A stretch of DNA of 11,968 bases, from contig JAUVIY010000049.1 of the NCBI GenBank assembly GCA_030592625.1, positions 1 through 11,968 on the forward strand. The letters are read 5' to 3'. Shown one piece after another: positions 1 to 11,276 of the stretch. The position numbers were made by a program, and so were the translations under genes. Under the pieces are notes generated by a model. That model had not been told where the DNA came from, made no database searches, and saw only the letters and a list, made by a program, of their open reading frames with translations. Position 1 is the stretch's first letter, and the number at the start of each line of letters is the position of its first letter. Source of the DNA: Spirochaeta sp. GTDB lineage: Bacteria; Spirochaetota; Spirochaetia; DSM-2461.

Positions 1-1844
1 ACGCCCTTGATGAGATAATCGCTTACCGGAAACTGATCGGAACCGGAGATGAGACTTCTCTGCTTGAAATCCACCACTGCAGCCACATCTTCCTTGGTGG
101 TGAAGCGGACGATTTTCCCTTCTTCCGGTACCATTGAGTAGCTGCGGTTCAGGATGAACTGGGTGACTCTGCAGCGCTTGATGTATGGATAATTGTTCTC
201 GATGTTCCTGTATACAAGGGAGAAAACAACCTCCTCGCAGGTTTCCTTGTCAGCCAGCCCCGCATAGAGCATACCTTTGCCCACGAAAAGTTTGTCCGGA
301 ACATCGGTAATCAGATAGCTCCCGTCCTTTTTGACGTAGAGTACGCGGTCGTATACCGAGGCGTCGAAGAGCACCCGGCCACCTGAGGTTTCGTGTCCCA
401 GATAGCCGGTGTCGGGATTGTACTTCACCTTGAGGTTTTTCTTGGCCGCATCCCGGACGTCCACCTTACGAAGGCTGACTATTTCGCTATGTCTGGGATA
501 CTTGCCGCGATATTTCTCCAATACACCGTCGAGAAAATTTAAAGCGTATTTCACAAGATGCTTCAAGTGGTGTTCCACTTCGTCGAGTCGCTCCTGGAGC
601 TGCCTGATTTCGTCTTCCATCCGCTCGATATCGAACTGACTGATGCGGCGGATGGGTATTTTCAGGAGCCTCTCGACATCATCGTCGGTGACAGTACGGC
701 CGATTTCACCGGAGAAGGGGTCGAAACCCTTGTGCACAGACCGGAAAATACCGGAGACGGTCTTGATAGGTTCGATTCTCTTGTATATTTTCTCGGTGAT
801 GAAGATTTTCTCCAGGGTACGGGCGTGGATTCTGTCCAGGAGCTGACCCTTTTCCAGGAGCAGTTCTTTCTCCAAAAGCTCTACCAGTCTTCCGGAATGG
901 TGCTCAATCACCTCGGGAACCGTCATAATGACGGGTTTATCGTCCCGGATCATCAACATGTTCAGCGCGATGCTGACTTCACAGTCGGTGAAGGCGTACA
1001 GACCATCCAGGACATCCCTGGTATGGACTCCCCGAGATAGTTTTATCTCAATTTCCACGTTTTCGGTGGTGTAGTCATTGATAGCACCGACTTTAATCTT
1101 GCTGGACCGGGCGGCAGCCTCGATGGATGCAATGAGGTTCTCAGTAGTTACACCATAGGGCAGCTCCCTCACAACGATGCGCTTGGGATCGGATGAGTCC
1201 AGCCGGGCACGGCTGAGTATCTTGCCGTTACCCTCATTGTAGTTGGATACGTCAATTGTACCACCTGAAGGGATATCGGGAAAAAGCTCAAACTCCTCAC
1301 CCCTGAGATGGGCCTGTTCGGCTTCGAGAACCTCAACGAAGTTATGCGGCAGCATACGTGTGGACATGCCGACAGCGATGCCTTCGGCTCCCAGTATGAG
1401 GGGCAGAGGAATTTTTGCCGGCAGGGTGATTGGTTCTTTCCGCCTTCCGTCATAGGAATCGGTAAAATCGGTGATTTCCGACCGGAACAGCACTTCCCCA
1501 GCCATGGGCAGAAGCCTGCATTCGATGTACCGGGCCGCCGATGCCGGATCACCGGTGAGAGTATTTCCGAAGTTTCCCTGTTTATCGATGAATAATTCTT
1601 TGTTGGCCAGATTCACCAGGGCTTCGTAAATTGAAGAATCGCCGTGGGGGTGATATTGCATGGCATGACCCACGATATTGGCCACTTTATGAAATTTGCC
1701 GTCATCCACATCGTGAAGGGATTGGAGTATTCGTCTCTGCACCGGTTTGAGACCGTCTTCCAGGTGGGGAATAGCCCGCTCCTTGATGACGTATGAGGCG
1801 TATTCAAGAAAATTTTCGTTGAAAATCTTATTGATATAGGCCAT
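1..1844 (-). CDS. parC: DNA topoisomerase IV subunit A (ParC), 3' end beyond the window
   Basis: This is the DNA-cleaving and rejoining subunit of a type IIA topoisomerase, which pairs with ParE to decatenate daughter chromosomes. The frame is open from an ATG at 1844 to the left edge, giving 614 codons without a stop. The N-terminus reads MAYINKIFNENFLEYASYVI, followed by the family signature DGLKPVQRRIL (residues 30-40). The quinolone-determining stretch HPHGDSSIYE lies at 65-74, with Ser70 and Glu74 at the places of GyrA Ser83 and Asp87. The catalytic tyrosine is Tyr106 in the AARYIE motif (codon 1529-1527). A charged heptad-like stretch around residues 400-430 fits the tower/coiled-coil part. 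The start directly abuts the parE stop, and a GGAGA inside the parE end (1860-1856) is a possible ribosome site. No GyrA box is seen in the visible part. GyrA is the alternative, but pairing with this ParE and the gene order favour ParC. Confidence 0.93.
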   Translation of the reverse strand, partial: MAYINKIFNENFLEYASYVIKERAIPHLEDGLKPVQRRILQSLHDVDDGKFHKVANIVGHAMQYHPHGDSSIYEALVNLANKELFIDKQGNFGNTLTGDPASAARYIECRLLPMAGEVLFRSEITDFTDSYDGRRKEPITLPAKIPLPLILGAEGIAVGMSTRMLPHNFVEVLEAEQAHLRGEEFELFPDIPSGGTIDVSNYNEGNGKILSRARLDSSDPKRIVVRELPYGVTTENLIASIEAAARSSKIKVGAINDYTTENVEIEIKLSRGVHTRDVLDGLYAFTDCEVSIALNMLMIRDDKPVIMTVPEVIEHHSGRLVELLEKELLLEKGQLLDRIHARTLEKIFITEKIYKRIEPIKTVSGIFRSVHKGFDPFSGEIGRTVTDDDVERLLKIPIRRISQFDIERMEDEIRQLQERLDEVEHHLKHLVKYALNFLDGVLEKYRGKYPRHSEIVSLRKVDVRDAAKKNLKVKYNPDTGYLGHETSGGRVLFDASVYDRVLYVKKDGSYLITDVPDKLFVGKGMLYAGLADKETCEEVVFSLVYRNIENNYPYIKRCRVTQFILNRSYSMVPEEGKIVRFTTKEDVAAVVDFKQRSLISGSDQFPVSDYLIKG

Positions 1845-3644
1845 CTAGATCAGGTTCTCCATAATGTATTCCCGCCTCTGAGGCGTGTTCTTGCCCATAT
1901 AGAACGCCAGAGTTTCAGGGACGGTTTTCATGGAATCAATGCCTACCGGAACAATGCGCATGTCTTCGCCGATGAACTGCCCGAATTCCTTGGGGTTTAT
2001 CTCTCCCAATCCCTTGAAGCGGGTCACTTCCGGCCCCCTGATGGCTTCCATAGCCTCATCACGTTCCCTTTCGGAATAGCAGTACCGGGTCTCCTTCTTG
2101 TTGCGCACCCGGAACAACGGCGTTTCCAGGATATGGATGTGCCCTCCGATCACCAATTCTTCAAAATAATTCAGGAAGAACGTCAGGATAAGGTTCCGGA
2201 TATGGAATCCGTCGGTATCGGCATCAGTGGCCAGAACGATGCGCTCGTAGCGCAGGTTCTCGATGTCGTTTTCTATTCCCAGGGCCATCATCAGGTTGAA
2301 AAGTTCTTCGTTCTTATAAATAGCCGCCTTTCCCTTGCCGTAGCTGTTCCAGGGCTTTCCCCTGAGGGAATATATGGCCTGGGTGTAAACGTCCCGGCAG
2401 CTCACCATGGATCCGGTGGCCGACTGTCCCTCAGTAATGAAAATGGTGGATTCCTCTCCCCTTTTATCACCCCGGTGGAACTTGCAGTCTTTGAGTTTGG
2501 GAATGTTCAGGGAGATTTTCTTGGCAGCGGCCTTGGCTTCCTTCTTCACTGCCGCCAGTTCTTTTCGGAGCTTCTCGTTGTTGACGATCTTGTTCTCGAG
2601 GTTTTTGGCGGACTCGGGATTCTTGTGGAGATAATCCACTACCGCCGCCTTCACCTCATTGATAATCCAGGAACGTATTTCGGTATTCCCCAGCTTGTTC
2701 TTGGTCTGGCTCTCGAACACCGGATCCTTCACCTTGATGGCAATGGCACCGACAACGCCTTCTCTGACATCGGTTCCCGAATAATTCTTCTTGGTGAACT
2801 CGTTCACACCCTTGAGCATGCCCTCCCGGAAGGCACTGAGGTGTGTTCCCCCATCCGAGGTGAACTGACCGTTAACGAAGGCAAAATGGGTCTCGCCATA
2901 GGCACTGGTGTGGGTGAAGGCAATCTCGAATTTATCTCCGGCGTGATAGACGATTGGATAGAGGGTAGTATCTCCGACTTCCCGTTCCAGAAGGTCGTGC
3001 AGACCTTTTTTCGATTCGAACTTCGTACCGTTGTAATAGAGCTTCAGGTTACGGTTCAGACAGGCGTAATTCCACATCCGGCGATCGATAAATTCATCCG
3101 TAAAATCGTATTCCGGTAATATCTCGGTATCCGGCGTGAACTCGACATAAGTACCATCGGCGTATCCCTCGCAGGAACCTTTACGCTCCTTGAGAAGAAC
3201 CCCTTTCGAGAATCTTACTTCCCGGTATTTCCCCTCACGATAGGAGCGGATGAGGAAGTGGCTGGAGAGGGCGTTCACCGCTTTTGTTCCTACACCGTTA
3301 AGCCCTACCGAGAATTGGAACACCTCGTCGTTGTACTTGGCGCCGGTGTTGATGACACTGACGCATTCCACCAGTTTTCCATGGGGTATGCCCCGTCCAT
3401 AGTCCCGACAGGAGATGCTGCCGTTCTTATGCTTTATCTCGATCTTCTTTCCAAAGCCCATGATGTATTCATCGACAGCATTATCCACAACTTCCTTCAG
3501 CATGATGTAGATACCGTCTTCGGGATTCGAGCCATCACCCAGGCGACCGATATACATACCTGAACGCAGGCGAATATGTTCGAGCGAACTGAGTGTTTTA
3601 ATCTTACTTTCGTCATAGACTTGTGCGGGAGAAACCATAACCAA
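1845..3644 (-). CDS. parE: DNA topoisomerase IV subunit B (ParE)
   Basis: This is the ATPase subunit of topoisomerase IV, 599 residues, a usual length for ParE without the GyrB-type insertion. The GHKL ATPase motifs are present: RSGMYIG (28-33), EVVDNAVDE (51-59, Mg-binding Asn), DYGRGIP (81-87), GLNGVG (114-119), and the transducer QTK (313-315). The Toprim domain has Glu405 in TEGQSATGS and the metal-binding DADTD (474-478). RFKGLGE (542-548) closes the family signature. The third residue of the usual EGDSA is Gln407 instead of Asp. The start is read as TTG at 3644, because AAGAGG (3656-3651) sits 6 nt before it. An ATG two codons later (3638) is 12 nt from the same site, a longer gap. The TAG stop abuts the parC ATG, so the two are co-transcribed and probably translationally coupled. 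Confidence 0.95.
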   Translation of the reverse strand: MVMVSPAQVYDESKIKTLSSLEHIRLRSGMYIGRLGDGSNPEDGIYIMLKEVVDNAVDEYIMGFGKKIEIKHKNGSISCRDYGRGIPHGKLVECVSVINTGAKYNDEVFQFSVGLNGVGTKAVNALSSHFLIRSYREGKYREVRFSKGVLLKERKGSCEGYADGTYVEFTPDTEILPEYDFTDEFIDRRMWNYACLNRNLKLYYNGTKFESKKGLHDLLEREVGDTTLYPIVYHAGDKFEIAFTHTSAYGETHFAFVNGQFTSDGGTHLSAFREGMLKGVNEFTKKNYSGTDVREGVVGAIAIKVKDPVFESQTKNKLGNTEIRSWIINEVKAAVVDYLHKNPESAKNLENKIVNNEKLRKELAAVKKEAKAAAKKISLNIPKLKDCKFHRGDKRGEESTIFITEGQSATGSMVSCRDVYTQAIYSLRGKPWNSYGKGKAAIYKNEELFNLMMALGIENDIENLRYERIVLATDADTDGFHIRNLILTFFLNYFEELVIGGHIHILETPLFRVRNKKETRYCYSERERDEAMEAIRGPEVTRFKGLGEINPKEFGQFIGEDMRIVPVGIDSMKTVPETLAFYMGKNTPQRREYIMENLI

Positions 3645-3766: not shown

Positions 3767-4960
3767 TCAGAATCGACGATCCTTCCTTAACAACGGGAAA
3801 ATCATCAGTGTCGCCAGCAGGGCCAGAGCTGCCGAAATAAGTCCCATACTTCGGAATGAGGTCAGCGGCAGAACGGCGAATCCGATGAAGGGGGCGAGTA
3901 TCCCTCTGAAACCGGCAAGAAAGGCATGGGCCGACTGATATATCCGGGTTTCATCAGGATGGGCGATACGGGTTACCCAAAGCTGCCAGATGAACGGAGA
4001 ACCCGATGTGCCTATCCCGAACAATATGGAAGCTAAGACAATAACCGAAATCCTGTCAGTCAGGAAATACAGGGGCATAGATACCATGTAAAAGAAATTT
4101 ATGGATATCCTGAATGTCGGGAAACTCAATTTCTGGTAAAGACGGGCCCAAAGGGGATTGAATATCAGCTTTATAACCGTGGGAATAATAACCAGAATCA
4201 GGGTAATCGTCATCGGCGAGAGCCCCAGCCCACGCTCTTGTTCGGCCAGATAAACCACTTTAAGGGGTAAGGTCCAGAGATTGCCGAAACCGATCAACAT
4301 CCACGAAATTTGCACATAGACAAACACCGGATTCCGGAAGGGCAAGGCCAGAGCCTGCCACCATCTATCCTTTCTGGGAACCGGACGGGCACCCGGCAAT
4401 CTGCCGAGGAGAACTACGGCGGAAAGAAACACGATGATACTGAAACCGGTAATCCATCTCCAATTTTCCAATCTGAAATCAAGCAGTAGACCGTAGAGAA
4501 ATCCCATTCCAACCGACAATGCCAGATTAAGCCTCAATCCGAGAGAAATCAGTTTTGCCCGCCGATTCGGGGGGTAAAGTTCGCTGTAGAGGTCGGTGAA
4601 AAACGGTTGCCGCAGGTGGACCGCCGCCAGGGCTATGGAAACAGAGACGGCAAAAACAACGCCGGACCCCGAAACCGTCCCCGCGGTCATAGCTGCGGCC
4701 GCCAGAGCGGTGAGCATGAGTAGAACACGGGATCGGGGAATGCCGGTTCGATTCAGCAGGCCGGTGAGCGGAGCCGTTAGTAAAAAACCGATGAAACCCG
4801 ATGCGGAGATAAGCCCCTTCCATACATCCCCGACGGCGAAATACCGAATGGCAACGATCATGAGGACCGAATCGATAAGCGGTTGAAAAATTCCGTCGGC
4901 AGCCTGGCGGTATGTATCGATGCGGAAAGCACGTTGTTCTTCGGAGGCGATTTCGATCAT
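3767..4960 (-). CDS. Major facilitator superfamily (MFS) transporter
   Basis: This is a 397-residue polytopic inner-membrane protein with the length and hydrophobic pattern of a 12-helix MFS carrier, probably driven by ion gradients. A motif-A-like loop GLLNRTGIPRSRV (67-79) lies between helices 2 and 3. A charged loop around 129-138 (YPPNRRAKL) and a basic central loop around 187-200 separate the two six-helix halves. The substrate cannot be named. The ATG at 4960 is the first in-frame start after an upstream stop. The Shine-Dalgarno sequence is poor (AGAG about 11 nt upstream), so the start is moderately sure. It lies 102 bp downstream of the RND-OMF gene on the same strand. No terminator is visible between them (only weak pairings in 4961-5062), so it may be the last gene of the efflux operon, which would suggest a drug or metabolite exporter. 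Confidence 0.85.
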   Translation of the reverse strand: MIEIASEEQRAFRIDTYRQAADGIFQPLIDSVLMIVAIRYFAVGDVWKGLISASGFIGFLLTAPLTGLLNRTGIPRSRVLLMLTALAAAAMTAGTVSGSGVVFAVSVSIALAAVHLRQPFFTDLYSELYPPNRRAKLISLGLRLNLALSVGMGFLYGLLLDFRLENWRWITGFSIIVFLSAVVLLGRLPGARPVPRKDRWWQALALPFRNPVFVYVQISWMLIGFGNLWTLPLKVVYLAEQERGLGLSPMTITLILVIIPTVIKLIFNPLWARLYQKLSFPTFRISINFFYMVSMPLYFLTDRISVIVLASILFGIGTSGSPFIWQLWVTRIAHPDETRIYQSAHAFLAGFRGILAPFIGFAVLPLTSFRSMGLISAALALLATLMIFPLLRKDRRF

Positions 4961-5062: not shown

Positions 5063-8000
5063 TTACTCCAGACCGGCTACCTGTCTCAGCTGCCGGTACC
5101 TGCGAATATATTCCAGTACTTCCCTCAATCTGCGGAGTTCAGAGGCCAGGCTGTCCAATTCGGCCAGGAGCCACTCCTCTTCCCTTCCATATCCGGATTC
5201 CCAGGAGCTTTGTTTCTGTGCCGCCCTGGAGGTATCCGTGTTCCGAAGCCCGATGTAGTACCCGATATTGTCCCGATTGAGATTCATGGAATACAAGGTC
5301 GATCTGATGAAGGATTCTACCGTTCTCCGACCGCCTTCCGCCCTGGCTCCGGCTGCCTCAAGATTTGCTTCGGCACTTCTGATATCCGAGCGTGATCGTC
5401 CTGAATCGAACAATGTACTCCTGGCGCCGATGGTAACTCTCCAGGTACCGTTGATATCATCGGGAATCCGGTCGAAACCACCTCCATAACCAAACTCGGT
5501 TCTGAATGCCAGATCCGGCTTTGCCGCCGCCCCGCCCCTGGCCATGCCCAGTTCCGCTCGAGCCATGTTCTCCAACGAGGAGAGGGCCATGATGTCAGGG
5601 TTTGAAGACCAGGCCGCGGTAATCAGTACTTCGGCGGATTCCGGCAGATAGGTATTCAGAGAATCATCCACCATCGGAAAATCCAGTAATTCCATTTGCA
5701 GATTGCTCAGTCCTGTTACTTGCTCCAGATCCAGAAGCAGATTCTGTCGCTCATTCCGAAGAGACGAAGCGGTGAGGAGAATCTGCTGCAGTCGGTTTCG
5801 AGTGTCCCGGTACTCGGATTCCAGCAGGAATCCTTCTTCGAAATTCCGGAGTGTGAGATCGGCCAGGCGGCTTCCAAATTCCTCCTGATCAACCGTGAGT
5901 TTCAACATCCTTTCCACAACGACAAGGGACTCAAGGGCGATGAGAATTCCTGAACGCAACTCATTTTCTCTGGACCGGGCATACCACCCGGCAGCGGCGG
6001 TACCCGCTTCGGCGACATCGATACCCGACGAGATCTTTCCCCAGGTAAAAAGAGGCTGCTCAAAAACAGCGGTGAGGTCGTAACGAAAATCGTTGGCCCG
6101 ACCCCAGATATCGATGTCATCCGACGGCATAACAACCGGGCCGCCTGGAAGTCCGAGATCGAGACTTCCCAGAGCTCCGGCCGGGACACTGAGAAGAGGA
6201 TCGCTGAGATATGAGGCCCCGAGCTCCAGATCCACCGTTGGTCCCCTCTCGGCTCTGGCACCCCTGAGACGCTCGGCCGCCGACCTGGCATCATACCGAG
6301 CGGCCAGGAGGTCAGGATCGTTTACCAGTGCCATGACAGTCAGCTCTTCAACATTCCAGGGGGATCCTTCTTCCGCTCCGAGCTTAGCCGGTCCGATTCC
6401 CTGTAACACCAGAAGGGCTGCAACGATGAGGGGCAGCACCGGAAACCTGCCTGCCCCGCCTTCCGGCTTCTCATTCAACTCATCAGAGGCAGCTATTGCT
6501 TTCTCCCGGCGTTCTTCAACCCATTCGTACAGAAGGGGAACCAGTCCGAGAGTAATCAGGGTGGAGGTGATCAGCCCGCCGCCGATAACCTGCCCCAGAG
6601 GGGCGTATATCTGCGAGCCTTCGCCAAGGGAAAATGCCAGGGGAATGAGTCCCAGCAAGGTGGTGAGGGTGGTGATGAGAATGGGCTTGAGGCGGATCTG
6701 TGCCGCTTCAAGGACGGCATCCCTGATTCCCAGACCTTCCCGTCTCCGCTGATTGGTGAATTCCACGAGTACGATAGCGTTGTTCACTACCATTCCTCCC
6801 AGGGCGATAACACCGAAGAAACTCATCATCGTTATTCTTCCGCCGAAAGCCGTCAGGGAGAGGGCCACACCGATGAGGATGAAAGGAACCGCTCCCATGA
6901 TGATGAACGGCTGGGTGAAACGTTCAAACTGAACCACCATAACGGCATAAACCAGAAAAATCGCAATCCCCAGGGAGATTAAAAGATTTCTGAAGGTGTC
7001 ACCCATGACATCCGCTACACCGGTGATGCGCCAAGAGACCCCGGGAGGCAGGGATGATGTCTGCAGCATCGGTTCGATCCTGCCGCGGATGGCCGTGAGA
7101 TCGGATTCAACCAGCTCTCCCACAACCAGAATCGATGGAAGTCTGTCCGAATGTGGGATGCTGTCGGTAGTAGGTTGCCTCTCCTGCCGGGAAAAGGCGG
7201 AATACGGGATGCTGGTTCCGGCGGCGTTTCTGATACGAATCCGGCCCAGTATACCCGACGGTATGTTCCTTCCGGCCAGGGAAGAGTCGATGAAAATGGG
7301 ATAGCTCTCGCTTTCAGTTTTTAAAGTACCAGCCTCTTCTCCCGCAAAGAGTATCCTCAGATTCCGCCCGGCGGCTGTGGGATCTACGGCCATGCGACCG
7401 GTACTCACCCGATCCAGGTTGATGCTCAACATATCCCGGTCCAGTCGAACGTTTAATGACGCTCTTTCAATGAGGGGATCGTCCTCCATGAGAATCCGGA
7501 CCGCTCCGGCGGCTTCCAGGACATCATCCCAGTCGGCCCCGAACAGTTCAACGCGGAATCCGGCACCTTCGGTGGCATAATTTATCTGTTTGGCCAGTCC
7601 GCCGTTCCGGACCGTGATGTCGGCATCCGTGATTTTCGCCGGAAGAACCCGGTTCAGATGTGATACGATATCGAATACCGAACGGTTCCGTTTAACGGTC
7701 CTTACCAGCCGGACCCGGCCGTATCCCTCGATGGGGTTGCCGCTTTCGATGAAGATAGCGCTGTCCCCAAGGCCGGCGTACCAGAGATCGGTTTCGATTT
7801 CAGGCACCTCAAGGGCCACCGCTGCAGCAATTTCGGCCATCTTGGCCTCGGCCTTCTCCAGATTGTAACCCGCCGGTAAACGGACGCTCAGCTCGAACTC
7901 GTTCATGTCGGGAGCACTTAAGAATTCTCCACCTAACATGCCCAGCACCGCCAGTGATGCGGCAACCAGTACGGCTGCAAGCACCAGGACGAAGCCCTTG

Positions 8001-9580
8001 CGGTTGAGGATGATTTTCAGAACCTGAACATAGTAGAGGGACAGGTGGTCGAACAGCGCATCGAATTTCTCGCCGAACCGCGCCAGAGGTCCCCTTTTAT
8101 GTTCCACCGCCAGAATCCGGGCTGAAAGCCAGGGTACGATGATGATTGCCGTCACAGCCGACGAGGAGAGAGCGAAAACCAGAACCCAGGAGACTTCTTT
8201 CAGAATCGCTCCGGCCAATCCTGAAAGAAAGAGAATCGGGATGAAAACCGACAGGGATGTGCTGGTGGAGGCCAGAACCGCTCCGCCCACCTCGGCGGCA
8301 CCCAGGGACGCCGCTTCAACAGCATTCCGCCCGAGCTTGCGGTGACGAATGGTGTTTTCCAGAATGACGATGGAAGCGTCGACAATCATGCCGATGGAAA
8401 CCGTCAGCCCTGCCAGGGTCATCATATTCAGGCTCATTCCCCGGGCCCGCATCAGGAGAAATGAGAGAAAAATCGTAAAGGGAATCGAGAGGGAGACGAT
8501 CAGCGCGGCTCGCAAGTCGTGGAGGAACAGCAGAAGAACAACGACGGCCAGAAGACCGCCGAGCCAGGCCGATTTGCTCACCGATTTCAGTGTGATCCCT
8601 ATGGTTTCGGCATTGTCGATCACAGGAACGAAGCGAATACCGCCGCCGGTTTCCTCTTCGATGGATTTTTGAAGGTTTTTCACCTCTGCCACAAGGGTTT
8701 CGGTGTCCCCGCCGGGACGTTTCATGATGTCCAACACCACGGTCCGGTGTCCGCCGGAAAGGGTACGAAACTCCGGGTTCTCATACCCCATTTCGATAAC
8801 TGCAACATCCTCGAGATAGACAGGATTGCCGTCGTCGGCATAACCCACGGGCTGACGGCCTACCTGCCGCAGTTCCGAATATTGGCCATCCGACTGAAGG
8901 GAAAGACGGTCGGCCCCCATCAGAACGTATCCTGCGGGAACAGATCCCTGACCTCTTTTTACGGCGGCAAATGCCTCCAGGGCGGTGATGTCCATGGCAT
9001 CGAGTTTTCCGGGATCCAGTTCCACTCTCAGCGCCGGTTCTTCGACGCCCCGTGCATAAACAGCCGAAACGTCCGTCAGACGGCTGAACCGTGGAATGAA
9101 CTCTTCATTGAGCAGCAGGGCAAAAACACCCACTTCCAGAGTGGATTCCACCAGGCAGGTGTAAACCGGGAGAAGCGAGGTGCCCAGCTCGAAGAGCCGG
9201 GAGCTGCCGGCCAGGCCTTCGGGAAGTTCGGAACCTGCGTTGCTGATCTTGTCCCGGATGTCGTTTTTCTTAGCCTCGATATCGGCATCCCAGTCCATCG
9301 TAAGGAATATCATGGAGACTCCGTCCTGGGACTCGGAGAAAATCTTGCGTATGCCGTTAATGAGGCTGAATTCCTTCTCCAGGGGTTCGGTGACATCTCG
9401 TTCCACCACTTCGGGAGAGGCTCCCGGATAAACGGTGAGAATCAGGACTTCAGGCTTTTCGATATTCGCCAGAAGATCCCGGGGCATACCCTGGAAAGAC
9501 AGTAGGCCGAAAAGAGCCAGGGAAATGAGTAATATGCCGATAACCGCTGGATGCCGTATGGCATAATCGGCGATTTTCAT
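5063..9580 (-). CDS. RND efflux pump fused to a TolC-family outer-membrane factor
   Basis: One unbroken 1505-codon frame. Residues 1-1030 are a full AcrB-type RND permease: TM1 about 11-29, a first periplasmic porter region, TM2-TM6 about 336-488, TM7 about 529-549, a second porter region, and TM8-TM12 about 863-1018. In TM4 the proton-relay motif is GMIVDASIVILEN (397-409), with one Asp (401) where AcrB has two. In TM10, VVNNAIVLVEF (931-941) has Asn where AcrB has Lys940. After a polar linker, a hydrophobic segment (1046-1063) ends in AKLGA|EE, a plausible signal peptidase I site after Ala1069. Residues 1070-1505 are a complete outer-membrane factor with two repeats: FEQPLFTWGK (1173-1182) and its counterpart STLFDSGRSRSDI (1388-1400), and RNFEEG (1245-1250) and WESGY (1460-1464), which match the usual adaptor-contact tips. 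The ATG overlaps the adaptor stop (ATGA). Permeases and OMFs are normally separate genes. The substrate is unknown. Confidence 0.93.
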   Translation of the reverse strand: MKIADYAIRHPAVIGILLISLALFGLLSFQGMPRDLLANIEKPEVLILTVYPGASPEVVERDVTEPLEKEFSLINGIRKIFSESQDGVSMIFLTMDWDADIEAKKNDIRDKISNAGSELPEGLAGSSRLFELGTSLLPVYTCLVESTLEVGVFALLLNEEFIPRFSRLTDVSAVYARGVEEPALRVELDPGKLDAMDITALEAFAAVKRGQGSVPAGYVLMGADRLSLQSDGQYSELRQVGRQPVGYADDGNPVYLEDVAVIEMGYENPEFRTLSGGHRTVVLDIMKRPGGDTETLVAEVKNLQKSIEEETGGGIRFVPVIDNAETIGITLKSVSKSAWLGGLLAVVVLLLFLHDLRAALIVSLSIPFTIFLSFLLMRARGMSLNMMTLAGLTVSIGMIVDASIVILENTIRHRKLGRNAVEAASLGAAEVGGAVLASTSTSLSVFIPILFLSGLAGAILKEVSWVLVFALSSSAVTAIIIVPWLSARILAVEHKRGPLARFGEKFDALFDHLSLYYVQVLKIILNRKGFVLVLAAVLVAASLAVLGMLGGEFLSAPDMNEFELSVRLPAGYNLEKAEAKMAEIAAAVALEVPEIETDLWYAGLGDSAIFIESGNPIEGYGRVRLVRTVKRNRSVFDIVSHLNRVLPAKITDADITVRNGGLAKQINYATEGAGFRVELFGADWDDVLEAAGAVRILMEDDPLIERASLNVRLDRDMLSINLDRVSTGRMAVDPTAAGRNLRILFAGEEAGTLKTESESYPIFIDSSLAGRNIPSGILGRIRIRNAAGTSIPYSAFSRQERQPTTDSIPHSDRLPSILVVGELVESDLTAIRGRIEPMLQTSSLPPGVSWRITGVADVMGDTFRNLLISLGIAIFLVYAVMVVQFERFTQPFIIMGAVPFILIGVALSLTAFGGRITMMSFFGVIALGGMVVNNAIVLVEFTNQRRREGLGIRDAVLEAAQIRLKPILITTLTTLLGLIPLAFSLGEGSQIYAPLGQVIGGGLITSTLITLGLVPLLYEWVEERREKAIAASDELNEKPEGGAGRFPVLPLIVAALLVLQGIGPAKLGAEEGSPWNVEELTVMALVNDPDLLAARYDARSAAERLRGARAERGPTVDLELGASYLSDPLLSVPAGALGSLDLGLPGGPVVMPSDDIDIWGRANDFRYDLTAVFEQPLFTWGKISSGIDVAEAGTAAAGWYARSRENELRSGILIALESLVVVERMLKLTVDQEEFGSRLADLTLRNFEEGFLLESEYRDTRNRLQQILLTASSLRNERQNLLLDLEQVTGLSNLQMELLDFPMVDDSLNTYLPESAEVLITAAWSSNPDIMALSSLENMARAELGMARGGAAAKPDLAFRTEFGYGGGFDRIPDDINGTWRVTIGARSTLFDSGRSRSDIRSAEANLEAAGARAEGGRRTVESFIRSTLYSMNLNRDNIGYYIGLRNTDTSRAAQKQSSWESGYGREEEWLLAELDSLASELRRLREVLEYIRRYRQLRQVAGLE
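6374..6493 (-). other. Internal signal-peptide-like linker joining RND and OMF halves
   Basis: This covers residues 1030-1069 of the fusion. A charged stretch with a final Arg1045 precedes an 18-residue hydrophobic run (FPVLPLIVAALLVLQGIG). Pro-Ala-Lys-Leu-Gly-Ala then gives small/neutral residues at -3 and -1 before Glu1070. This has the n-, h- and c-regions of a Sec signal peptide, but it is placed after the cytoplasmic C-terminus of a 12-helix permease. An in-frame GTG (6439-6437) preceded by GGCAGG with 6 nt spacing, and an in-frame TTG (codon 1035), could also serve as internal starts for a separate OMF. Confidence 0.6.
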
Positions 9581-10650
9581 CCGTCGGTACCGCTCAGAAT
9601 GCGGAGCTCGGTGCCTTCCCGGAGGAAGTGCTGACCTTCAACGATGAAGCGGCCGCCCTCCCATTCGCCGGGAACCACAACATAACCTGACGACAAGAAG
9701 GGGACCTCCAGTTCGAGGCGTCTGGCCCGTCCTTCGGAATCTACCGACCAGATCCACTTCCCTCCGCCGAGGGCCGATTCCGGCAGGGTTAAGACCTCAT
9801 CCCGGACATCCAGAACAAACTCCACATAGAGAAGCATTCCGGGAAGCAGAAACAACCGGGCACTCTCGTCGGGGAGTATTCTGCAGGTGACGGTGAATGT
9901 ACGGGTTGCCGGGTCAATCCAGGGAGCCACCGAACGGATTTGCGCTTCCAGGGGTGAATCGGGAAAGCTGTCGGCTGCGGCCCTGACGGCAGGGTCGCCG
10001 GTATTGAATGCCGGGTAGTAAGCCGCCGGGAGCCTTACCGCCACTTCCAGGTTGTCAAGTGATCCGACGGTATAGAGGGGTGTTCCGGCATCCGGGGCCA
10101 CAAGAGAACCGACATTGACATGTCGTACCAGAACCACACCCACCACCGGTGAATGAACCAGGGTCCAGTCAAAACGCAGCTTCGCAGCAGCGGACTGGGC
10201 TTCGGCTGCGGTATGGGCGGCTCGGGCTTCTTCCCAATTCTGCCGGGTTGAATTACCGGCGGTGAATAAGCGGTCGATACGTTCCCATGTGGAGGCGGCA
10301 TTGACATAAACCGCTTCCGCCCGTATCAAATCGAATTTATAGGCCTCCCGATCAATTTCCGCCAACAGGCTTCCCTCTTCCACCGCATCCCCCACTTCGG
10401 CGAACAGGGCAGTAATGGAACCGGCAACCTTCGGCAGGAGAGTCACCTGATTGGCCGATTTCAGGTTTCCATAGGCCGAAAGTGTTTCTTCGAGTCTTCT
10501 CTTCACGGGCTTTTCCACCCGAACCGGAGTCGGCGGTGGTGGGACCGCCCTTCCGATGCCTGATATTGTCAGAAACCGCGCCAGAATGACGATGGCAATA
10601 ATAAGTAGAATAAAAGATGCCTGAATAAAGCGACGTCTGCCGTTACGCAT
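9577..10650 (-). CDS. RND efflux periplasmic adaptor (membrane fusion protein, HlyD/AcrA type)
   Basis: This 357-residue adaptor links the inner-membrane pump to the outer-membrane channel. An N-terminal basic stretch and membrane anchor (about 5-29) are followed by a proline-rich spacer (37-42). There is no lipobox cysteine, so it is probably held by the uncleaved anchor. The lipoyl half-motifs are near 68-100 (VTLLPKVAGSI and a GDAVEEGSLLAEID turn) and 165-195 (VHSPVVGVV and GSLVAPDAGTPLYTV). A short alpha-hairpin lies between them (about 101-160). The beta-barrel domain is about 200-285 and the membrane-proximal domain about 286-357. The ATG lies 2 nt after the regulator stop, with GGGGGAAA just upstream inside the regulator end. 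The TGA stop overlaps the pump ATG by 4 bases. Tight coupling to the RND-OMF gene makes it the dedicated partner. Confidence 0.94.
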   Translation of the reverse strand: MRNGRRRFIQASFILLIIAIVILARFLTISGIGRAVPPPPTPVRVEKPVKRRLEETLSAYGNLKSANQVTLLPKVAGSITALFAEVGDAVEEGSLLAEIDREAYKFDLIRAEAVYVNAASTWERIDRLFTAGNSTRQNWEEARAAHTAAEAQSAAAKLRFDWTLVHSPVVGVVLVRHVNVGSLVAPDAGTPLYTVGSLDNLEVAVRLPAAYYPAFNTGDPAVRAAADSFPDSPLEAQIRSVAPWIDPATRTFTVTCRILPDESARLFLLPGMLLYVEFVLDVRDEVLTLPESALGGGKWIWSVDSEGRARRLELEVPFLSSGYVVVPGEWEGGRFIVEGQHFLREGTELRILSGTDG

Positions 10651-10652
10651 AA

Positions 10653-11264
10653 CTATTTCCCCCTGACCAGCCGGTGGGACTGCCGCCGGCCCTCTTCGGA
10701 CAGAATCCCGGTGAACATCACCGTTTCCACGAATTCCGAAAGGGATTTAACTTCACCTTCCATCAACGTCGAATCCCGCCGGCCCCAGACGACAATGAGG
10801 GTCACCATCACTTCCGACAGGGATCGGATCGGCAAATCCTTCCTGAGCAGTCCTTTTCGGATCCCTTCACCGAAGAAGCAGGTGAAGGCTTCCACATATC
10901 GAGATTTTAGCTCTGAAAAGAAGAACTCCTGATCCTCCCCAGACAAAATCATACCTTCCGGACCATAAGACAGCTCTACGACTTCCCGGCCGATGTCGAG
11001 GATAGCACCTCCCCGTTCCACATAGTCTCTGTCTGTATCGTCGACAATGAGGAACAGACGCGCCGCGAAATCCCGCATCTGACGTTCGATACAGCTTTTC
11101 CATATGTCCCTTTTGCCACCGGGGAAATGGTTGTACAACGTCTTGCGGCTCAGTCCCATGTGATCTGCTAAAGTCTTCATACGCAACCCTTGGTAGGAGA
11201 ACTGCCTGAAAAGCCTGTCGGCGGCATCGAGAATGCGTTCCCGGGTCTGTTGATTTTGTTTCAT
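10653..11264 (-). CDS. TetR/AcrR-family transcriptional regulator
   Basis: This is a 203-residue one-domain-plus-ligand-domain repressor type. The N-terminal DNA-binding part reads QTRERILDAADRLF, then a helix-turn-helix about 31-47 (TLADHMGLSRKTLYNHF), which is the family signature with the typical LYNHF end. The remaining roughly 150 residues are helical and variable, as expected for the ligand and dimer domain; the ligand cannot be told. It heads the efflux operon and the adaptor starts 2 nt after its stop, so it very likely regulates itself and the pump. I chose ATG 11264. An in-frame GTG at 11273 would add three residues, but it would sit at the predicted transcription start. The leader would be very short, with only a weak AGTGG before the ATG. 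Confidence 0.92.
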   Translation of the reverse strand: MKQNQQTRERILDAADRLFRQFSYQGLRMKTLADHMGLSRKTLYNHFPGGKRDIWKSCIERQMRDFAARLFLIVDDTDRDYVERGGAILDIGREVVELSYGPEGMILSGEDQEFFFSELKSRYVEAFTCFFGEGIRKGLLRKDLPIRSLSEVMVTLIVVWGRRDSTLMEGEVKSLSEFVETVMFTGILSEEGRRQSHRLVRGK

Positions 11265-11276
11265 TGCTGCCACTTT

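Follow-up and report, generated by a model that had tools for sequence, protein, structure and literature searches.

One gene for an RND pump and its outer-membrane channel: a recurrent fusion with an internal signal-like segment in spirochaetes and other bacteria

In ordinary RND efflux operons, the pump and its outer-membrane channel (OMF) are encoded by two genes with a stop codon between them. Among those compared here (L016, L019, L053, L057, L060, L065 and L122), the RND gene is followed by the OMF gene on the same strand, the adaptor gene lies upstream in L053, L057 and L060, and the separate OMFs, where examined, begin with a signal-like segment. The locus studied here has the same order, including the upstream adaptor; however, its pump and channel are joined in one frame without a stop. 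Both parts come from known families, and bacterial membrane polyproteins that undergo processing have precedents, e.g., Bradyrhizobium FbcH, a one-gene cytochrome b/c1 precursor with an internal signal peptide, which is cut by signal peptidase. However, both products of FbcH stay at the inner membrane, whereas the second product of the fusion gene is predicted for the outer membrane. Bacteroidota also have CusA/CzcA-family proteins, about 1450 aa long, that include a channel domain. Within the RND superfamily, the SecDF partners are fused in Thermus thermophilus (PMC8277102); there, both halves share one membrane and the fusion is lasting, in contrast to the cut precursor predicted here. Another paper states that outer-membrane pore proteins are only rarely fused to other domains (PMC4827864), and a literature search, with sources largely short of full text, found no paper describing a natural RND-OMF fusion or polyprotein. 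The statement of an earlier, sequence-only reading of this DNA that no example is described holds for the papers searched, but not for databases, where fusions are present in RefSeq and JGI under pump names.

The window, i.e., the whole stretch of DNA analysed, spans 11968 bases, and the genes described here all lie on its minus strand. The cluster begins with a TetR-type regulator (10653..11273; PF00440, 1.2e-9), which is found at the same position in three other loci (L042, L043 and L044). Next comes the periplasmic adaptor RND_mfp (9577..10650; TIGR01730, 166 bits vs. a cut-off of 94.9), whose stop codon shares an ATGA (9577-9580) with the start codon of the fusion, so that an adaptor gene scoring above its cut-off lies directly beside pump and channel, as in a tripartite pump. 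The RND-OMF fusion gene (5063..9580) has an ATG start and 1505 codons plus a stop, and in the translation of its minus-strand frame (9580-5063) the single stop is the terminal one. Downstream lie an MFS transporter (3767..4960; PF07690, 1.5e-15), which is also found at this position in L044 and is probably not part of the pump, and the topoisomerase IV type parE and parC genes (3644-3).

The first two thirds of the fusion (residues 1-1021; 6518..9580) match the RND permease family PF00873 (ACR_tran) at residues 3-1021 with 664 bits against a gathering cut-off of 28, covering profile positions 1-1020 of 1021, and the best solved relative of this part by sequence in the PDB is MdtB (9lyq, 2.6e-92). 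A hydropathy scan, in which two single-point maxima (148 and 1221) were disregarded, gave 11 clear segments in the RND part; as one of them (342-370) is long enough for two helices, the twelve helices claimed by the sequence-only reading fit. A further segment, with a maximum of 1.99, lies beyond the RND part at 1050-1060. No NCBIfam RND permease cut-off was reached (AcrB, MdtB/C, CusA/CzcA, RND_permease_1 and 2), the best score being 585.7 vs. 1250 (NF033617), with 330.7 vs. 701 for CusA/CzcA. The predicted mature channel (residues 1070-1505; 5066..6373) contains two stretches of PF02321 (OEP), with 126 bits against a gathering cut-off of 22, and scores under the NCBIfam cut-off of TIGR01844 (73 vs. 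225). A profile built from five channel parts matches TolC chains in the PDB, the best being 7ng8 (2.8e-7, partial length). The single 1505-codon frame with a complete permease followed by a complete OMF, as first read from the letters, is thus borne out by the Pfam matches. In AcrB, the proton relay consists of Asp-Asp in helix 4 and Lys in helix 10. The Asp pair and the Lys were looked for in the window and are absent, the corresponding stretches being GMIVDAS, with a single Asp at residues 401-402 in helix 4, and MVVNNAI, with Asn-Asn at residues 933-934 in helix 10. With the AcrB residues replaced, proton coupling of this pump may differ from that of AcrB.

Between the two domains lie the cytoplasmic tail of the pump together with the n-region of the putative internal signal (residues 1022-1045; 6446..6517), a hydrophobic core defined by hydropathy (residues 1046-1062; 6395..6445), and a c-region (6374..6394) in which a loose signal rule predicts a signal peptidase I site, L1067-G1068-A1069↓E1070 (arrow, predicted cut). 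This site falls at 6382-6374, after the same Ala1069 that had been proposed before. The core and the small residues typical of signal peptidase I substrates are found in the window by this loose rule (LGA↓EE), and the residue at − 3 is Leu, which is tolerated at such sites but not ideal. The loose rule is passed by all 14 scored fusion junctions and the strict rule by 13, the window's alone failing, on charge, because acidic residues forming a net-negative stretch precede its hydrophobic core; the other 13 have the net-positive n-region. None of 82 unfused RND tails passes. The rule is home-made, and its loose charge test was added after the window had failed the strict form. An initial strict version was run on 11 junctions, of which 10 passed and the window's failed, and was passed by nine of ten N-termini of separate OMFs used as a positive control (P0126 failed); the later strict version bars charged residues in all ten core positions and drops the bar on Pro at − 2. 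The control tails derive from 115 RND proteins among the matches listed, none longer than 1200 aa, of which 82 have a tail of at least 15 residues. The shortest of these are too short ever to pass, so that the count of tails with any hydrophobic 10-mer, 1/82, is the fairer control. Shuffled linkers pass the strict rule in 2-24% of trials; part of every match is thus due to composition, and the weight lies with the set taken together.

The fused linkers share an order of basic residues, hydrophobic core, small residues and channel motif, and small residues recur at − 1 and − 3 of the junctions. In several fusions the site reported by the rule differs from the one that looks best by eye; the best site in L149 is weak (APS↓G), and the junction of L158, which is not among the 14 scored, reads by eye as a signal ending AAA↓Q. 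In six pairs among four proteins (P0003 left out), the linker is 25-41% identical, compared with 61-72% for the RND part and 42-64% for the OMF, the values being close in the pair P0001/P0004 (linker 41%, OMF 45%). This poor conservation of the linker suggests that the feature is kept rather than the letters. Genes of the signal peptidase I family (Peptidase_S26) are present in the window's genome. In Bacteroidetes, signal peptidase I cleavage leaves an N-terminal Gln in most substrates, termed the Q-rule (PMC5837995). As this rule predicts, Gln follows Gly at a possible site in two Persicobacter fusions despite their differing linkers (LSWG↓QVQ by the signal rule; LSSG↓QKS by eye, one residue beyond the rule's site), a pattern that points independently to cleavage but was spotted post hoc in two related proteins.

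In total, 15 RND-OMF fusions were collected, including the window's: nine in or near spirochaetes, two from Bacteroidota, two from Gemmatimonadota and two without a taxon. A whole-protein search (7989 candidates scored, 2640 found) gave, among the 120 matches listed, four further clusters with the same architecture (P0002-P0005), which are 58-70% identical by local alignment and 58-66% by multiple alignment; the fusion is thus not a chance event. They lie on separate contigs, one of 1.5 Mb, and P0004 is cut near its C-terminus by a contig end. A search with the channel part among fusion-size proteins gave seven matches of 7992 scored, namely the window and P0002-P0005, plus the distant fusions P0121 and P0122; JGI names one of this pair AcrB/TolC. 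When P0122 was compared with plasmids, at least 5000 records matched, and the four covering 80% or more of it are two from Gemmatirosa and two from Persicobacter. A second, diverged RND-OMF fusion, L158, is found on Gemmatirosa plasmid 2, in the same organism as L127. L046 is a further fusion from named spirochaete loci, and P0129, a junction-spanning fragment that begins inside the RND part, brings the fusions to 15.

Within the window's phylum, a channel-profile scan of 296 genomes gave 25 with a match at 1e-30, and frames longer than 1300 aa were found in three of these (the window, G267 and G303). OEP matches at 1e-15 occur in 25 of 26 genomes of the window's family; of those listed, just the ones in the window and G005 lie in frames longer than 1300 aa. 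Of nine genomes in the genus, the fusion is found in the window, G005 and G007, the last cut C-terminally by a contig end; the copies in G006 and G004 stop before the junction, and there is no close copy in the other four. In the closest copy (L025, G004:C463), with 87% identity across the first 283 residues, the frame is interrupted near the contig end by a stop that may be real or a sequence error at the edge. The locus L044 is syntenic with the window (TetR-adaptor-fusion-MFS-parE-parC). This synteny and the recurrence indicate a real architecture, rarely encountered in these searches, that is conserved at this locus. The database search suggested by the sequence-only reading for RND-OMF proteins of this size was thus productive, with some fusions in related genomes, and relatives are not always split. 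Two other long frames were observed: an OEP pair in an 805-aa open frame (G009:C53:18061-19359), possibly another channel fusion, and a 1978-aa open frame (L123 851-6784, G037:C63) whose RND match spans 878-1949 and which overlaps another RND frame at 294-3461.

A database entry resembling the window is AABK40_RS19240 of Persicobacter psychrovividus (WP_338399011.1; 1467 aa, 4404 bases), in which, again, an adaptor gene overlaps a single RND-OMF gene with an internal signal-like segment. However, it belongs to another RND branch, and its site fits the Bacteroidetes Q-rule. It is annotated as an efflux RND transporter permease subunit, with the channel unnamed. Its channel part matches four plasmid records, two from Persicobacter, one from Gemmatirosa and one a separate Bacteroides TolC-family gene.

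The seven nearest unfused proteins (P0006-P0012, so labelled from their predicted length) are 63-76% identical in the RND part and end at residues 1030-1054, which is the start of the fusion linker. Separate channel proteins (P0123-P0125; 71-72% identity) have an N-terminal signal peptide, and the internal segment of the fusion sits where these separate channel genes have theirs. P0128 and the unfused RND protein P0009 come from contigs that are both 10300 long and share one source. In L016, L019, L053 and L057, among other split loci, the start of the channel gene lies across or next to the RND stop; in other split relatives the OMF gene is separated by hundreds of bases or is encoded on the opposite strand. 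Two long frames were rejected as fusions: that of G020:C65 (L121) has a TGA between pump and channel, and the 1482 aa of G029:C1 (L122, 3402-7850) include a stop between a 1044-aa RND frame and a 437-aa OEP frame, which has its own ATG and signal. Both L121 and L122 have RND, one stop, a short gap, a new start and OMF in the same frame, an arrangement that is plausible as the step before fusion.

Phylogenetic trees showed that the fused state is scattered. The fused label must change at least six times over the 50 labelled rows of a 51-row RND tree (L042 left out), and L046 is sister to the unfused L062. In a 19-row RND tree of the window's group, both the five fused rows as one clade (p-AU 8.9e-7) and the seven split rows as one clade (p-AU 2.7e-6) were rejected. 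In the OMF tree, six fused rows as one clade were rejected (p-AU 1.3e-4), with P0127, which begins at an internal Met and whose state is uncertain, counted as standalone. L149, L150, L157 and L158 are in no tree. These results, together with the L046/L062 sisters, indicate that fusion and splitting have alternated, and the distant branches suggest more than one gain of fusion. The sequence-only reading had noted that the fusion would fix 1:1 synthesis; that this is its point is not supported, since both states come and go within one group, so that a fixed pump-to-channel ratio is evidently dispensable.

Taken together, the window gene is probably a membrane polyprotein, in which the pump inserts, an internal signal restarts export and signal peptidase frees the channel. 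The one frame and the internal export signal found here are those of a processed polyprotein; of what was first proposed, one gene, an internal export signal and, as the letters suggest, probable cleavage stand, while the window's signal falls short of the strict charge rule. In the main rival account, most of the channel would come from translation that begins within the junction, the long frame being a by-product of in-frame overlap. An ideal signal in L150 (MNRKKTVAGLLVLMLAAAALA) is directly preceded by a Met, a Met also lies close to the core in P0122 and L126, and both the overlapping or abutting genes of the split loci and the ATG of the L122 channel are what such a start would resemble. 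However, the in-frame candidates in the window junction (TTG1035, GTG1048 and GTG1058) have no listed Shine-Dalgarno word upstream, nor does any in L043, L044, L046 or L127 (in L126, scanned without a Shine-Dalgarno filter, in-frame starts exist). Moreover, a channel with a start of its own could keep the RND stop, yet none of the 15 fusions has a stop between the parts. This account is thus unlikely. The separate channel start that the sequence-only reading had set against its own proposal therefore has no Shine-Dalgarno match in the window junction, and the missed stop or frameshift that it had also considered there is at odds with the fusion being carried by independent assemblies.

Indeed, although the window comes from a 438-contig assembly that is 73% complete, a sequencing or assembly error, or decay, that joined two ordinary genes is extremely improbable, as both parts are intact and conserved and the fusion turns up again in separate assemblies, among them plasmid records labelled as complete; as a general account, an assembly artefact was rejected on this recurrence and on the L044 synteny. 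A programmed frameshift was rejected because the frame is continuous; the other two minus-strand frames hold stops across the junction. It is also conceivable, but highly unlikely, that the segment stays uncleaved as a permanent thirteenth helix, anchoring the channel to the inner membrane as a covalent bridge across the envelope. The hydrophobicity of the segment would suffice for a helix, and the window's charge pattern is unlike that of a classic signal. However, W1075, the first channel motif, lies about 16 residues past the hydrophobic core, too few, given the dimensions of such pumps, to link an inner-membrane protein to an outer-membrane channel across the periplasm, which makes cleavage the simplest reading, in keeping with the recurrent small residues at the predicted sites. 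The gain and loss of the link within one group would also not be expected if it had a structural job.

Under the polyprotein reading, we infer the insertion order, cleavage, assembly and efflux of the fusion product as follows. Two adjacent genes would have fused, with the fused state gained or lost several times; as both forms would give the same end products, such changes would be easy and expected. One mRNA with one start codon would give a 1505-residue chain, whose RND part would insert through 12 helices and leave its C-terminus on the cytoplasmic side, the topology standard for RND proteins such as AcrB. Because of this topology, the next hydrophobic segment must point outward, and the former signal peptide of the channel, with its N-terminus facing in and its C-terminus out, would serve as an internal signal that takes the channel part into the periplasm. 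Signal peptidase I would then cut after Ala1069, and the freed OMF would enter the outer membrane in the usual way and assemble with the pump and the separately encoded adaptor into a tripartite efflux complex of the ordinary kind. It is likely that fusion and its undoing have been repeated in several phyla, with one initiation event yielding a two-membrane machine via an internal signal.

A pump and a channel in one chain break the expectation that proteins of different membranes have separate genes, and the fusion makes it possible to test cleanly how an internal signal that follows twelve helices is recognised. Annotation pipelines that call such genes "RND permease" hide an outer-membrane channel. 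The mix of fused and split relatives amounts to a natural experiment on the importance of the pump-to-channel ratio and, if the polyprotein reading is true, an outer-membrane case would be added to the short list of bacterial membrane polyproteins.
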